From: Egibacter sp. | GTDB lineage: Bacteria; Actinomycetota; Nitriliruptoria; Euzebyales; Egibacteraceae | Length of the DNA stretch: 44,843 nt | Direction of reading: 5' to 3' | Assembly (NCBI GenBank): GCA_003553795.1 | Contig: PWFH01000168.1 | Location: 1 to 44,843, forward strand | Shown: positions 27,616 through 34,091 of the stretch, piece after piece | Numbering within the stretch: position 1 is the first letter of the stretch | Layout: every line of letters starts with the position of its first letter | Notes under the pieces: model-generated | Seen by the model: only the letters and a program-made list of their open reading frames with translations | Told to the model about the DNA's origin: nothing | Database searches by the model: none | Made by a program: the position numbers and the translations under genes

Positions 27616-29052
27616 ATGCTCTTCCCGACGGTGCAGTACGCGATCTTCTTCGCGATCGTGCTCGTCGCGAGCTGGCTGCTGACCCCACAGCCGGTGCGCT
27701 GGAAGCTCTTCATGCTCGGCGCGAGCTACGTCTTCTACGCGGCCTGGGACCCCCGCTTCCTCCTCCTGCTCGCCGGGGTCACGGTCTTCAACCAGGTCAT
27801 GGCGCTGCGCATCGCCGCCGCCGACGACGACGACCGCCGCCGCGCCCTCGTGCGCTGGACGGTGGCCGGCGACCTCGCGGTGCTCGGCTGGTTCAAGTAC
27901 TACGGCTTCTTCGTCGCCTCGATGGCCAACCTCCTCGCGCGCTTCGGGGTGTCCCAGCCGTTCCCGCTGCTCGAGATCGTCCTGCCGGTGGGGATCTCCT
28001 TCTTCACCTTCCAGGCGATCAGCTACGTCGTCGACATCGGCCGCGGCAAGCTCGAGCCCGCCAGCCACCTCGACGTCGCGGTCTTCCTCGCCTTCTTCCC
28101 CCAGCTCGTCGCCGGGCCGATCGTCCGCGCGCGGGAGTTCCTGCCCCAGCTCGCGACCCGCGCCGGGCAGGTCCTCGACACCGGCCGGGCGTTCGGCCTC
28201 ATCACCGCGGGGCTGTTCAAGAAGGTCGTCGTCGCGAGCTTCCTCGCGAGCGCGATCGTCGACGAGGTCTTCGCCAACCCCTCGGCGTACTCCTCGGGGG
28301 AGATCCTCGTCGCCGTCTACGGCTACGCCGCGCAGATCTACACCGACTTCTCCGGCTACACCGACATCGCGATCGGCTGCGCGATGCTGCTGGGCTTCAC
28401 CTTCCCCGACAACTTCAACCGCCCCTACGCGGCGACGACGCTGCGCGACTTCTGGCGCCGCTGGCACATGACGCTGTCACGCTGGCTGCGCGACTACCTC
28501 TACATCCCCCTCGGCGGCTCGGCGCACGGGCGGGCGCGCACCTACCGCAACCTCATGCTCACGATGCTCCTCGGCGGGCTGTGGCACGGCGCGGCATGGA
28601 CGTTCGTGGCCTGGGGCGCGCTGCATGGCGGCTGGCTCGCGCTCGAGCGCTACCTCGAGGAGCGCCGCCAGGCCCGGCCAGCGCCACGCCGTCCCGGCCT
28701 CGCCCCCCTCGAGCCGTGGTGGATCGAGACGCGACGCTGGCTCGTGACCTTCCACGTCGTCTGCCTCGGCTGGGTGTTCTTCCGCGCCGAGTCCTTCGAC
28801 GTCGCCACGACGATGCTCACCCGGCTGGCCACCGCACCGGGCCCCGCGCCGCTCGTCACCGTGCCGGTGCTCGCGGTGATCGTCGCGACGATCGCGGTGC
28901 AGTTCCTGCCGGAGGGCACCGGCGAGGCGATCCAGGCGCAGTTCAGCCGTCTGCCGCTGGCCGGGCAGGCCCTCGCGCTCGCCGGCGCCCTCGTTGTCAT
29001 CGACGCCCTCGGCCCACCGGGGGTCGCCCCGTTCATCTACTTCCAGTTCTGA
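27616..29052 (+). CDS. MBOAT-family O-acyltransferase (AlgI/DltB/PatA type)
   Basis: Polytopic membrane acyltransferase of 478 residues that would move an acyl (usually acetyl) group across the membrane to a polymer. The opening MLFPTVQYAIFFAIVLVASW, KYYGFF, LPVGISFFTFQAISYVVD, FFPQLVAGPIVRA, and FWRRWHMTLSRWLRDYLYIPLGG are AlgI-like landmarks. The catalytic histidine is expected at His324 in GGLWHGAAW, with His337 in GALHGG. The SGNH-domain gene begins 52 bp downstream, giving the MBOAT plus SGNH pair typical of extracellular O-acetylation. A TAGACT box at 27538 could drive the gene with a leader of about 70 nt. Confidence 0.92.
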   Translation: MLFPTVQYAIFFAIVLVASWLLTPQPVRWKLFMLGASYVFYAAWDPRFLLLLAGVTVFNQVMALRIAAADDDDRRRALVRWTVAGDLAVLGWFKYYGFFVASMANLLARFGVSQPFPLLEIVLPVGISFFTFQAISYVVDIGRGKLEPASHLDVAVFLAFFPQLVAGPIVRAREFLPQLATRAGQVLDTGRAFGLITAGLFKKVVVASFLASAIVDEVFANPSAYSSGEILVAVYGYAAQIYTDFSGYTDIAIGCAMLLGFTFPDNFNRPYAATTLRDFWRRWHMTLSRWLRDYLYIPLGGSAHGRARTYRNLMLTMLLGGLWHGAAWTFVAWGALHGGWLALERYLEERRQARPAPRRPGLAPLEPWWIETRRWLVTFHVVCLGWVFFRAESFDVATTMLTRLATAPGPAPLVTVPVLAVIVATIAVQFLPEGTGEAIQAQFSRLPLAGQALALAGALVVIDALGPPGVAPFIYFQF

Positions 29053-29104
29053 TGGGCCGGCCTCGCGGACCCGCGCACGCCGGCCTGCCATCCTGGCGTG
29101 TGCG

Positions 29105-30238
29105 ATGAGCACCGACACCGAGCCCCGCGCCGCCGCGGCCCGACCCCGCGGGCCCTCCGGCGAGGAGGAGACGCCGCCGACGCGGCGATGGCTGAGCCCG
29201 GCGCAGGCCGTCGCGGTGCTGCTCGCCGCGCTCCTGCTCGGCGCGGTCATGAACGCCTCGTCGCTCGCGGCCACCGCCGAGCGCCAGCCCTTCGGCTGGC
29301 AGCGCAGCGTCGCCGTCGCCGTCGTCGGGCCCGTCGAGGCGCTCGCCGAGGTGACCGGGCTCGGCCGTGTCCACGCCTGGCTCGTCGAGGGCCTGGGCGG
29401 GTGGTTCCGCCCGGCGATCCGCGAGCCGGCCGCCCCCGGCGAGCCGACCGGCACACAGGCGGCGGGCGGCGACCCTGCCGAGGCGGCGACCGCCGAGGGC
29501 GAGCAGGACGCCACCGCCGAGGGCGAGCAGGACGCCACCGCCAACGACGGGGCCACCCGGGGGTCGGAGACCGACGACGCCGGGCCACGTCGGTCACCGA
29601 CCGAGGAGGACCCCCTCGCGGTGTGGGTCGCCGGCGACTCGCTCGTCGAGCCGCTGGGCGCCGCGCTGTCCTCGGCGCTCGAGGGACGTCTGCCCGCTGA
29701 GGTGGCCGCCGAGCCGCAATACTCCACCGGGCTGGCCCGACCCGACTACTTCGACTGGCCGGCGCACGCCGGGGCGACGGTCGGGGAGGACGACCCCGAC
29801 CTCGTCGTCGTCATGCTCGGGGGCAACGACGACCAGGACATGCGCGGCGACGAGGTCATCCACCGCCGCGACGACGAGTGGCTCGAGGAGTACCGCGGGC
29901 GCGTCGATGACTTCCTCGACGCGCTCACCGCCCAGGGCGCGGAGGTCCTCTGGGTTGGCCTGCCGGTGATGCAGGACGCGACGTTCGACGGCGCGATGCG
30001 CGAGCTCGACGAGGTCTACGCCGCAGGCGCCGAGGACCATCCCCGCGCGACCTACGTGCCCACCCGCGACCTGCTCGCCGACGACGGTGGGTACGCGACC
30101 TACCTCGAGGGCGCCGACGGCGGGGTCGAGCGCATGCGCCGCGACGACGGCATCCACCTCACCCCCGATGGCGGTCGGCTCCTAGTCGAGGCGCTGCTCG
30201 CCCAGGCGATCCTCGAGCGCTGGGCTCCCGACGGCTAG
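29105..30238 (+). CDS. Membrane-anchored SGNH hydrolase-fold protein (DUF459-like)
   Basis: A protein of 377 residues with one N-terminal membrane anchor (about residues 34-56, AVAVLLAALLLGAVMNASSL), a disordered acidic linker with a perfect 8-residue duplication, and an extracellular SGNH domain. Block I is WVAGDSLVEPLG with Ser179, the oxyanion Asn is in MLGGNDDQ, and block V is DGIHLTPDGG with Asp348 and His351. It lies directly after the MBOAT gene, so it is probably the partner that completes acetyl transfer or trims acetyl groups, as PatB or AlgX do. The target polymer is unknown. Its last 57 bp overlap antisense with the gene at 30182-30769. Confidence 0.88.
   Translation: MSTDTEPRAAAARPRGPSGEEETPPTRRWLSPAQAVAVLLAALLLGAVMNASSLAATAERQPFGWQRSVAVAVVGPVEALAEVTGLGRVHAWLVEGLGGWFRPAIREPAAPGEPTGTQAAGGDPAEAATAEGEQDATAEGEQDATANDGATRGSETDDAGPRRSPTEEDPLAVWVAGDSLVEPLGAALSSALEGRLPAEVAAEPQYSTGLARPDYFDWPAHAGATVGEDDPDLVVVMLGGNDDQDMRGDEVIHRRDDEWLEEYRGRVDDFLDALTAQGAEVLWVGLPVMQDATFDGAMRELDEVYAAGAEDHPRATYVPTRDLLADDGGYATYLEGADGGVERMRRDDGIHLTPDGGRLLVEALLAQAILERWAPDG
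29489..29536. repeat. Perfect 24-bp tandem duplication in the SGNH linker
   Basis: Positions 29489-29512 and 29513-29536 are identical and encode TAEGEQDA twice within the disordered linker. The reading frame is kept. Confidence 0.9.
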
Positions 30239-30906: not shown

Positions 30907-31632
30907 CTACGAGCGGCCGTCCTCCTCGTCGGCGCGTTCCTGTCGCGCTTCGAGGAAGTAGGCCCCGATCATCCCGGCAAGGGAAGCGAAGACGACGATG
31001 GCATAGACCGAGAGCGCGATGGCCAGCAGACGGCCGGTCACCGTCACCGGCTCGTGGACCATGTTGGCCGCGAGGCCCAGGTTCGCCGACCACCACAGCG
31101 CATCGCCGAGGCTGGTGAGGGCCCCCTCGCGTCCGCGCTCGAGCACGAACAGCAGCTGGCCGCTGCCGAACACGACGACCACGGTCGCGGCCAGCAGGAA
31201 CTGCAGCCGGCCGGTCAGCAACACACGGGCGGTGCCGACCGCGCGGTAGGACGAGCCGACCACGCGGCCCAGGGGCAGGACGCGCACCAAGCGCAGCGCG
31301 CGGAACAGGCGCAGGACCCGCAGCAACGGCAGCACGAGGAAAAGCACGGAGGGCCAGTGACGACGCAGGAAGCGCGCCGGCCGCCTCGACACCACGAGTT
31401 TGGCGATCAACTCGACCGCGAACAGCCCCCAGATGACGTTGCTGACCACGGCCAGCACCTCGCGCTGGTCGCGTGGCGCGGTCAGCTCGTAGGCCACCAA
31501 CCCCGCCCACACGACGGCGAGCACGGCCATCGGTATGTCGAGCCGGCGTTCGAGCAGCGCGGCCAGGCGTTCGCGCTCGGTCGGCTCGTCGTTCGGATCG
31601 GGATCGAGGGTGGGGGAAGCCTCGTCGCTCAT
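30907..31632 (-). CDS. Voltage-sensor-type ion channel protein with altered pore motif
   Basis: Membrane protein of 241 residues with the 6-TM cation channel layout. Helices S1-S3 are about residues 34-105. An arginine-rich S4 (LRVLRLFRALRLVRVLPLGR) follows, then S5 (RLQFLLAATVVVVFGSG), a pore loop near residues 178-197 and S6 (LAIALSVYAIVVFASLAGMIGAYF). The pore loop keeps the ALWW start and the EPVTVTGR end of potassium channels, but the filter TVGYG is absent; the stretch reads SANLGLAANMVH. Ion selectivity is therefore open, and a non-conducting sensor is possible. The ATG at 31632 is preceded by a weak GAGGTG. Confidence 0.8.
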   Translation of the reverse strand: MSDEASPTLDPDPNDEPTERERLAALLERRLDIPMAVLAVVWAGLVAYELTAPRDQREVLAVVSNVIWGLFAVELIAKLVVSRRPARFLRRHWPSVLFLVLPLLRVLRLFRALRLVRVLPLGRVVGSSYRAVGTARVLLTGRLQFLLAATVVVVFGSGQLLFVLERGREGALTSLGDALWWSANLGLAANMVHEPVTVTGRLLAIALSVYAIVVFASLAGMIGAYFLEARQERADEEDGRS

Positions 31633-31960
31633 CGTCCCGACACCTCGGTCAGACGGCCGTGGGTCCCGACAGCCAGGCTGGAACAGTCACCGACCGGCGA
31701 ACGCCACCATCGGAGATATCGCGGCTGTCGGATATGCCCTCCTCGACGTCGGCTCCCCCGAGCCTACTGACCGCCACGCCGCCCACGACCTCGCACCGGG
31801 GCACTCACCAACAGCCCGAGGGGCTCGCCCAGGCCCCGCAACCACATGCCGGCGCCCGCGGCACCGCCCCCAAGGCGCCAGGCGAGCCCTGCGAGCTGCC
31901 CTGGTCCGCATCACGCGGAGACCCCGGAACGGCTCAGCGGACGCGCTGGAGGGCCCGCCG
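31633..31960. other. Gene-free interval between the ion channel gene and tRNA-Val
   Basis: About 330 bp with no coding sequence I can support. It should contain the promoter of the channel gene; a TAGGCT box lies on the minus strand at 31761-31766, about 130 bp upstream of its start, and a few AT-richer patches (gatatc, ggatatg) lie nearby. The tRNA terminator should be at the right side of the interval, but no clear hairpin with a U-tract is seen. Confidence 0.5.
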
Positions 31961-32034
31961 TGGGCGCTGCAGGGCTCGAACCTGCGACCTCGTGCTTGTA
32001 AGGCACGCGCTCTCGCCACCTGAGCTAAGCGCCC
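31961..32034 (-). tRNA. tRNA-Val, anticodon UAC
   Basis: A 74-nt cloverleaf on the minus strand. The acceptor stem GGGCGCU pairs fully with AGCGCCC and is followed by discriminator A. The D-arm is GCUC/GAGC, the anticodon stem is CGUGC/GCACG with loop CUUACAA (anticodon UAC, reading GUA/GUG), the variable loop has 5 nt, and the T-arm GCAGG-UUCGAGC-CCUGC is perfect. The CCA end is not encoded. It lies alone, not in a tRNA cluster. Confidence 0.95.
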
Positions 32035-33023: not shown

Positions 33024-33959
33024 TCAGTCCGCCGGGCGCAGCAACGCCTTGCCCCCGGCGTGGCCCGCATCGACGAGCGCGAGCGCGCGCTCGGCCTGCC
33101 CCAACGGCGCCTCGACGACGACGCGCGAGCGCAGCGCCCCACGCGCCACGCGGTCGAGCAGGTGCGCGAGGACGGTGGCGTCGGGATGCACGAGCGGCCG
33201 GCTGCCGAAGAAGTCCCGCAGCGCGTCGGCGTCGCCCGGCAGCGACACGAGGGTCACCCGACGGGTGTGGTCGCCCACCCCGGGCATCGCGAGGACGTCA
33301 TCGACGGCGGTGACGGTGTTGACGACGAGGTCGATGCGCTCGTCGACCGCGGTGAGCGACTCGCTCGTGTAGTCGACGACACGGTCGGCGCCGAGTGCGG
33401 CGCACAGACCGGCGTTGCGCGCCGAGGCGGTCGCCACGACGCGGGCCCCGGCGGCGTGGGCGAGCTGGATGAGCTGCTGGCCCACACCGCCCGCACCCCC
33501 CGTCACGAGCACCGTCTCGCTCGCGGAGAGGCCGCCGTGCTCGAAGAGCGCCTGCCAGGCGGTGAGCCCGACGAGCGGCAGGGCCGCCGCCTCGGCGTCG
33601 CCGACCCCGGCCGGGATGGCGACGACCTCGTCGGGCCGCGCGAGGACGTACTCCGCGAATCCGCCGGGCGCCGAGGGGAAGCCGACCATCCCGCACACCC
33701 TCGTGCCCACCGCCAAGTCCCCCTCGCCCGCGTCGCGGACGATCTCGCCGGCGACGTCGTAGCCGGGCGTGAGCGGGAGCCGGTCGGCGAGGCCAGGGTC
33801 GGCAGGGCGGCCTGCGCAGGTCTTGAGGTCGACGGGGTTGACCGCCGCGGCCTGCACGCGCACGAGCACGCCGCGCTCGGCGTCGGGCTCGGGAATCGGC
33901 ACCGACACCAGGCGCAGGTCACGCCACGAGCCGAACGCCGCGAGTCGCAGCGCCCGCAT
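33024..33959 (-). CDS. MDR-family NADPH:quinone reductase-like alcohol dehydrogenase
   Basis: Zinc-independent medium-chain oxidoreductase of 311 residues. The GroES-like N-terminus starts MRALRLAAFGSWRDLRLVSVP and includes AAAVNPVDLKTCAGR and TPGYDVAGEIV. The Rossmann domain has VLVTGGAGGVGQQLIQLAHAAGARVVATAS, and GADRVVDYTSESL follows. Lack of the catalytic-zinc Cys/His set places it with quinone or enone reductases. The ATG at 33959 is the usual family start; a GTG at 33980 with a better Shine-Dalgarno sequence (GAGGAG) would add seven residues and is a real alternative. Confidence 0.88.
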   Translation of the reverse strand: MRALRLAAFGSWRDLRLVSVPIPEPDAERGVLVRVQAAAVNPVDLKTCAGRPADPGLADRLPLTPGYDVAGEIVRDAGEGDLAVGTRVCGMVGFPSAPGGFAEYVLARPDEVVAIPAGVGDAEAAALPLVGLTAWQALFEHGGLSASETVLVTGGAGGVGQQLIQLAHAAGARVVATASARNAGLCAALGADRVVDYTSESLTAVDERIDLVVNTVTAVDDVLAMPGVGDHTRRVTLVSLPGDADALRDFFGSRPLVHPDATVLAHLLDRVARGALRSRVVVEAPLGQAERALALVDAGHAGGKALLRPAD

Positions 33960-34091
33960 CGTCGCGCCCTGCCCGGCCACGCCTCCTCCTCGCTCCTCGC
34001 CCCGCACGCTTGCCCAGCGCCCGCCCGGCGTCAACCCCGGCGCCCCCGGGTCGGGCCCACCAACGTCGGTGCCCGCCCCCAGGCAACGGGT

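Follow-up and report, generated by a model that had tools for sequence, protein, structure and literature searches.

Selectivity filters are a textbook case of strict conservation. BacNav Na+/Ca2+ channels carry an acidic residue in a TLESW-like filter, CNG channels combine a TIGE-type filter with a cyclic-nucleotide-binding domain, and the voltage-gated potassium channels of the Kv and KCNQ types place a TxGYG filter within a six-helix fold with an arginine at every third residue of S4. The NirBac channels, which are KirBac relatives, are described in passages of the published account as having a potassium channel scaffold whose pore loops bear no relation to known filters, as forming stable oligomers consistent with tetramers and as showing no selectivity in liposome flux assays, with little selectivity among monovalent cations (PMC4607889). 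The abstracted record of the alkaliphile channel NsvBa presents it as a non-selective voltage-gated channel (PMC4225499), while TbIRK, as summarized in its report, lacks the signature sequence and still retains a K+ over Na+ selectivity greater than 7 (PMC5429665). In the KefF-KefC system, an excerpt places the oxidoreductase gene 5′ of, and overlapping, the efflux gene (PMC10224563). Here we describe a six-helix protein of the Nitriliruptoria in which the potassium filter is replaced, and which belongs to a group, termed G1, for which no description was found in the open-licence literature searched, although subscription papers may hold one.

The channel gene and its filter stretch

The window, namely the 44,843 nucleotides of Egibacter sp. 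contig PWFH01000168.1 that were analysed, harbours the G1 gene on its reverse strand. The gene was identified by its open reading frame, Pfam match and orthologues, and its features are as follows:

30907..31632 (-), G1 channel gene encoding 241 amino acids, stop codon included
31480..31536 (-), S1, residues 33-51, boundaries approximate; the acidic position 49 is Glu in 20 and Asp in two of 22 G1 rows
31390..31452 (-), S2, residues 61-81, boundaries approximate; F71, E74 and K78 each in 22/22 G1 rows
31330..31356 (-), S3, residues 93-101; Ser95 in place of the usual canonical Asp
31279..31329 (-), S4, residues 102-118; R105, R108, R111, R114 and R117
31138..31233 (-), S5, residues 134-165; the last residue, E165, in 22/22 G1 rows
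31084..31110 (-), pore helix LGDALWWSA, residues 175-183; mean pairwise identity of about 0.84 in G1 (residues 174-183)
31051..31083 (-), replacement of the K+ filter, NLGLAANMVHE, residues 184-194; N184 is the sole invariant residue
31030..31050 (-), pore exit PVTVTGR, residues 195-201, like that of Kv-type channels
30949..31029 (-), S6, residues 202-228; A216 in place of the canonical Gly

The sequence ANLGLAANMVHEP occupies the TVGYGD position of the window protein, between a pore helix and an exit that are both Kv-like. By codon arithmetic, NLGLAANMVH (residues 184-193) corresponds to positions 31054-31083 of the window, with ALWW at residues 178-181 and EPVTVTGR at residues 194-201. The translated product matches Pfam Ion_trans (PF00520) with 37 bits against a cut-off of 25 (36.5 bits in the whole-genome search), while Ion_trans_2 falls under its cut-off (14.8 versus 22.5 bits). 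A Pfam scan up to E 1 recovered nothing beyond Ion_trans and the weak Ion_trans_2 match, and thus no recognizable cytoplasmic effector domain in the 241 residues. The relatives with solved structures found by sequence search of the PDB are KcsA and KCNQ channels, with the alignment spanning the missing filter; a KirBac scaffold with its cytoplasmic Kir domain was found neither in the Pfam scan up to E 1 nor among these PDB relatives, and both the TIGE filter and the cyclic-nucleotide-binding domain of CNG channels are absent from the protein. An Hv1-type voltage sensor lacking a pore was considered and ruled out, as S5, the pore helix and S6 are present and conserved.

The likeness to Kv and KCNQ channels extends to the six helices, the S4 arginines at every third residue, five in all from R105 to R117 in the window protein, the F..E pattern of S2, a pore helix with WW and the P-V-T..G-R exit. 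G1 departs from them in the absence of TVGYGD, a loop one residue shorter, and the replacement of the S3 Asp by Ser and of the S6 Gly by Ala. The TVGYG motif is also absent from the other two frames of the filter stretch in the window, so a simple frameshift does not explain its loss.

A first AlphaFold2 model, built with 11 close rows, had a pLDDT of 53.6 and was discarded. When 38 further channel rows were added, the mean pLDDT was 78.6 and the pTM 0.67 for the monomer, with residues 120-132 below pLDDT 50. This second model places helices at the S1-S6 positions and a pore helix at residues 175-188, followed by a loop to residue 197. It was matched by Kv, KCNQ, Slo and CNG-type channels, the best Foldseek match being Kv2.1 (E 3.6e-4; four matches at E ≤ 0.001) and the highest VIA-align Z 14.8 (Slo2.2; 221 aligned residues; rmsd 5.7). 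The six-helix fold of G1, with the S4 arginines kept in 21-22 of 22 rows, is thus that of voltage-gated potassium channels, in a model that 38 TVGYGD channels among its 49 alignment rows bias towards that fold. Because the added rows are canonical potassium channels, the model offers no independent proof of a potassium channel-like pore, and as Z values near 13-14 can reflect a common arrangement in helical models, we take the fold evidence as supportive only.

Distribution, ancestry and conservation of the filterless group

The G1 gene is present in 23 of the 66 genomes compared from the Nitriliruptoria class, that of the window included, and TVGYG is absent at the same place in all 23, the copy of G061 being cut by a contig end. 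The 20 other rows compared share 60-87% amino acid identity with the window protein, and the consensus around the filter reads SANLAIxSNLVxEPVTLAGR. Among 396 sampled genomes of the phylum, all 13 profile matches of G1 strength (E < 1e-90) belong to this class. The ten named relatives are all Nitriliruptoraceae metagenome genomes. Members of the Nitriliruptoria are listed, in the accessible summary of one survey, with the Actinobacteria that abound in hypersaline soda-lake sediments (PMC6146748). No relative was recovered when IMG/VR was scanned with the G1 alignment, and the four plasmid matches to the window protein are all weak, none covering 80%; those read comprise a canonical TVGYGD channel from Vibrio and TTIGSEYWP-type proteins from Deinococcus and Sinorhizobium.

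The gene is under purifying selection, with dN/dS values against the window gene of 0.17, 0.21, 0.18, 0.18, 0.28 and 0.38 in six relatives, the highest belonging to the most distant. A decaying potassium channel or a sequencing artefact could have been suspected from the fact that two copies are imperfect: the same-genus draft G001 (76% complete) holds a fragment only, and the G028 copy runs off the family frame near its end. We regard this explanation as scarcely credible and reject decay or a frameshift, given that 23 genomes carry the gene, that dN/dS is low, that the other frames lack TVGYG and that the change characterizes a well-supported clade. The preliminary description had proposed that decay be judged by whether the window sequence alone differs, and it does not, since 23/66 genomes agree and dN/dS is 0.17-0.28 in five of the six pairs. 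Its central observation, a potassium filter replaced in a Kv-type six-helix protein with S4 arginines, is confirmed by the reading frame, the Ion_trans match and the absence of TVGYG in 23 genomes, while its interpretation is partly supported.

The fragment in G001 (L033; G001:C88:5101-5505) joins both gene ends in one open frame, with approximately residues 68-152 missing, and TVGYG is absent there too. As this draft of the same genus shows a fragment only, the gene may be dispensable. The G028 orthologue (L030, on C10) leaves the family frame after about residue 216, a possible frameshift, and in G052 (C349:8521-8640) a 40-residue fragment with an 80% match to residues 110-149 is found some 5 kb downstream of the complete gene.

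A second filterless group of the same phylum, G2, shares about 40% identity with G1 and carries an AxATITGEP-like stretch in the filter place. More distant still are proteins reading TTVGSELYPVT or TTIGSEYWPVT, followed by the canonical TVGYGD channels. A first tree comprised 85 rows, and a second 77, from which the filter columns and eight long-branch rows were removed; L033, L123 and L030 are in neither. In the 77-row tree, support is 100/98 for G1, 100/99 for G2, in part through labelling, and 100/98 for the canonical channels, while G1 and G2 together with one further row, L072, are supported by 98/95. The TTVGSE types form a grade adjoining G1 and G2 and no clade, and the canonical channels stand apart. 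The motif rule left seven rows unlabelled; after the first tree, L040, L035, L080, L041 and L101 were assigned to G2 on the basis of their position and a motif resembling G-E/Q, and the TVGYGD-bearing L111 was assigned to the canonical group. The single origin of G2 is therefore partly a matter of labelling, six changes being needed before relabelling, while that of G1 is independent of it. On the sequences compared, the filter loss is common to the whole G1 and G2 clade, next to the TTVGSE-filter grade.

As the sister group, G2 likewise lacks TVGYG and has an S6 with Ala216 and Gly223, but its loop is shorter still, WW and E165 are lost and one Gly is found in 22/22 rows. The TTVGSE and TTIGSEYWP proteins, which in the set compared come from Actinomycetota, resemble G1 in loop length, which is equal by letter count, and in the S6 residues Tyr 210 and Phe 215 (17/17 rows), but they keep a T-(T/S)-x-G/S-S-E/D pattern, one residue shorter in the TTVGSE type than the canonical filter, and the S3 Asp in 15/17 rows. 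G1 and G2 never share a genome (0/66; 23 and 11 genomes; Fisher p 0.006, with relatedness ignored), which suggests one shared role; the mutual exclusion shrinks to P 0.09 among the 33 best genomes (10 and 6). The TTIGSEYWP type also occurs on plasmids: it was read in records from two cyanobacteria, a Deinococcus and a Sinorhizobium (13 matches; four of the five records examined gave a readable frame), in which the protein, where annotated, goes by "potassium channel family protein" or "ion transporter". Filters of the T(T/S)(I/M/L)GS(D/E)(Y/F)(W/F)P type are likewise found in several phyla under generic channel names (L235-L238, L092).

Residue counts for G1 were made on 22 rows, leaving out L033 (a fragment), L123 (short) and L030 (off frame near its end). 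Mean pairwise identity of the filter stretch against the core is 0.53 versus 0.67 in G1 (ratio 0.79), 0.53 versus 0.48 in G2 (1.11), 0.67 versus 0.58 in the TTVGSE types (1.16) and 0.80 versus 0.35 in the canonical channels (2.30), values which, the groups differing in depth, are comparable by ratios and ranks only. Ranked from the lowest among all 11-residue stretches, the filter takes place 11 of 196 in G1, 57 of 183 in G2, 157 of 196 in the TTVGSE types and 167 of 170 in the canonical channels; the five lowest stretches of G1 lie around the S1-S2 loop. N184 is invariant (22/22), as is no other position of the segment, while positions 187-192 keep residue classes, namely I/V/L, A/S/T, S/A/G, N/T/S, L/I/M/V and V/I. 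Gly occurs at residues 187-193 in just four of the 22 rows, and His at position 193 in eight. To the question posed in the preliminary description, whether NLGLAANMVH is conserved in homologues, the answer is yes for position, length and residue class, and no for the sequence itself, which is among the least conserved stretches.

The surroundings of the segment are strongly kept. The pore helix is the best kept segment measured in G1 (0.84), E165, P195, G200 and R201 are each found in 22/22 rows, and the S4 residues R105, R108, R111, R114 and R117 are Arg in 22, 22, 21, 22 and 22 rows, respectively. A pore helix of such conservation beside a poorly kept filter segment indicates that the pore architecture is retained and the filter chemistry relaxed. 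At S3 position 95, Ser is present in 22/22 G1 rows and Asp in 19 of 23 canonical rows; at S6 position 216, Ala is present in 22/22 G1 rows and Gly in 21 of 23 canonical rows. These replacements throughout G1 suggest that gating may differ or be lost.

No TxGYG filter is present in any G1 row, and residues 184-193 contain no Asp, Glu, Lys or Arg in 22/22 rows, so that the acidic residue of a BacNav-type filter is absent as well; the preliminary description had likewise seen no fit to potassium, sodium or calcium filter patterns. A pore made selective for K+, Na+ or some other ion by a novel filter, formed by N184 and a ring of A/S-A/S-N/T residues, would draw on the invariance of N184, on the residue classes kept (aliphatic, small, small, N/T/S, aliphatic, V/I) and on the precedent of TbIRK, whose selectivity persists in the published excerpt despite the missing signature. 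We consider it improbable, as the segment reaches 0.53 where the core reaches 0.67, while a canonical filter stands at 2.3 times its core average, and neither G-x-G nor a charged ring is present. The low conservation makes a strict new filter less likely and favours low selectivity or no conduction; the new selectivity proposed in the preliminary description is, if sharply tuned, the less likely outcome. The proton or anion path also raised there, whether it runs through the voltage sensor or the pore, would be compatible with the uncharged segment and the lost S3 acid of the charge-transfer centre; it is very improbable, no positive or proton-selecting pattern being conserved in the pore segment and His193 occurring in 8/22 rows only.

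Gene neighbourhood

The window gene has no conserved partner when its neighbours are compared with 28 loci. Upstream lie a tRNA-Val gene (31960-32034) and an SDR gene, and downstream, on the other strand, a DUF459/SGNH gene and an MBOAT gene. In the latter region (27616-30238, forward strand) the MBOAT acyltransferase gene overlaps the DUF459/SGNH hydrolase frame, a likely acylation pair. The same-strand open reading frame just downstream of the channel gene (P0002; 30182-30877 frame) matched no family above cut-off and has no relative beside the orthologues. An MDR gene at 33027-34034 is just 31-40% identical to the MDR1 and MDR2 proteins described below, and its nearness to the channel gene is treated as chance.

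A gene for a quinone-reductase-like enzyme, MDR1, precedes the G1 gene on the same strand at 0-86 bp in eight of the 22 genomes examined (five genera by group code; gap measured up to where the match with the window protein begins), G064 being the 23rd G1 genome, outside these 22. In two of the eight the two genes overlap as GTGA. Within 50 bp after the channel comes a YbaK-like tRNA-editing gene in 7/8, and farther along the locus, also in 7/8, is another quinone-reductase-like gene, MDR2, five copies of which lie within 2.2 kb of the channel start and one, partial, at 6.4 kb. A divergent methylglyoxal synthase gene (mgsA) is located upstream in 5/8, with MgsA above cut-off in all five. MDR1 is of the zinc-binding-dehydrogenase type, nearest to the NADPH:quinone-reductase model of NCBIfam (315 of 348 bits), MDR2 scores 202 of 297 bits against the NCBIfam quinone-reductase model and YbaK 106 of 153 (TIGR00011); since these scores are under the cut-offs, the three are named by nearest model, and MgsA alone passes.

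The arrangement is missing from 14 of the 22 genomes, the window genome among them, and the link is therefore lineage-specific. Furthermore, divergent mgsA-MDR1 pairs exist without the channel in at least six genomes (by coordinates: G036, G037 with a partial mgsA match, G047, G055, G057 and G064), which indicates that the channel joins an existing locus. The window genome holds mgsA and its best MDR1 match (55%) on two other contigs. None of MDR1, MDR2, YbaK and MgsA was found beside G2 or TTVGSE genes, within flanks of about 1.5 kb or less; some G1 loci likewise have short flanks, and L011 has none upstream. The divergent pair of methylglyoxal synthase and quinone-reductase-like genes recurs in the class with or without a channel (L241-L244 and L246; G036:C160, G055:C69, G064:C98 and others).

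The MDR1 neighbour, as read from gene order, hints at a redox or electrophile role for G1. The layout recalls that of Kef, in that an oxidoreductase gene is directly 5′ of a membrane-protein gene, with a few-base overlap in 2/8 and methylglyoxal synthase near in 5/8 of these genomes. The parts differ: in Kef, a K+/H+ exchanger bearing a KTN domain (KefC) is paired with an FMN protein (KefF), whereas the G1 locus combines a six-helix protein with an MDR-type enzyme; the exchanger, KTN domain and FMN oxidoreductase were not found, the channel matching Ion_trans only, and the window lacks the Kef-like layout altogether. By this analogy G1 could be the membrane component of a system through which Nitriliruptoria release ions under electrophile or redox stress, a filterless pore on a Kv scaffold opened by an NADPH-dependent MDR1 in a KefF-KefC-like layout of unrelated parts, which we consider unlikely.

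Conduction, sensing and the role of G1 proteins

Other channel proteins are encoded in the same genomes. That of the window encodes a canonical six-helix channel as well, L002, whose filter reads TTVGYGD, and G1 might be a silent subunit co-assembling with this potassium channel of the same cell. The identity between the two is about 28%, and strong canonical-profile matches (E < 1e-40; filter read in 9/13) occur in 5/23 G1 genomes versus 13/66 overall, showing no association (Fisher p 0.76); the absences are soft, since incomplete genomes are numerous and truncated channels miss the threshold (e.g., G052:C197). Such co-assembly is, in our estimation, highly unlikely. A further protein of the window genome, L222 (G000:C97:1965-2621), is Ion_trans-like, with a voltage-sensor-like half and a short DPTS..R stretch in the P-loop place. 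Its relatives, 46-92% identical, are found in 29 of the 66 class genomes, its own included, and in 16/23 G1 genomes (Fisher p 0.004, with relatedness ignored); no P-loop is recognizable in the 13 rows aligned.

Judged by its sequence, the G1 protein, which is conserved among soda-lake and related bacteria, is probably no potassium channel in decay but a pore that is either poorly selective or silent. The main rival to a poorly selective pore is a voltage sensor without conduction, in which the aliphatic segment would plug the pore and the protein would signal membrane potential to a partner enzyme or itself act as a scaffold. The segment's rank of 11 from the lowest among 196, its uncharged and mostly glycine-free composition and the almost invariant S4 arginines are all consistent with this, as are the quinone-reductase-like gene preceding the channel in 8/22 genomes and the presence of an L222-type protein lacking a recognizable P-loop in the window genome and 28 others of the class. 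The pore helix, E165, P195, G200-R201 and S6 are, however, kept more strongly than a mere scaffold needs, and no cytoplasmic effector domain was recognized. We regard the silent sensor as rather doubtful.

Our tentative preference, short of firm confidence, is that G1 is a working member of a filterless Kv-type clade, forming a tetrameric pore that passes monovalent cations with little selectivity. Four subunits would most likely assemble into a pore coupled to the voltage sensors, with an outer mouth lined by the small, polar and aliphatic residues A188, A189, N190, M191 and V192; as this mouth would present no stacked backbone carbonyls, little selectivity among monovalent cations may be expected. 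The pore would be opened by depolarization or, in some lineages, by a redox or electrophile cue that the quinone-reductase-like enzyme of the adjacent upstream gene would provide. The well-kept pore helix beside a poorly kept filter would be unexpected of a dead pore. By analogy with NirBac, which shares the potassium channel scaffold and a pore loop unrelated to known filters in the account available, and which differs in being related to KirBac where G1 is of the six-helix voltage-sensor type, a poorly selective, voltage-sensor-coupled cation pore is the best-supported reading (PMC4607889). Against it, a filter segment more variable than most of the core also fits no conduction.

Beyond the preliminary description, the sequence comparison adds the loss across the whole G1 and G2 clade, the accompanying changes of S3 Asp to Ser and S6 Gly to Ala, and the quinone-reductase-like neighbour in some relatives. 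The family offers a natural series: the six-helix channel is otherwise retained, while its filter passes from TVGYGD by way of TTVGSE into a stretch that is poor in glycine and loosely conserved. With this series, the function left to a voltage-gated pore that has lost its filter becomes open to experiment, and the quinone-reductase-like neighbour suggests a physiological condition under which to look.
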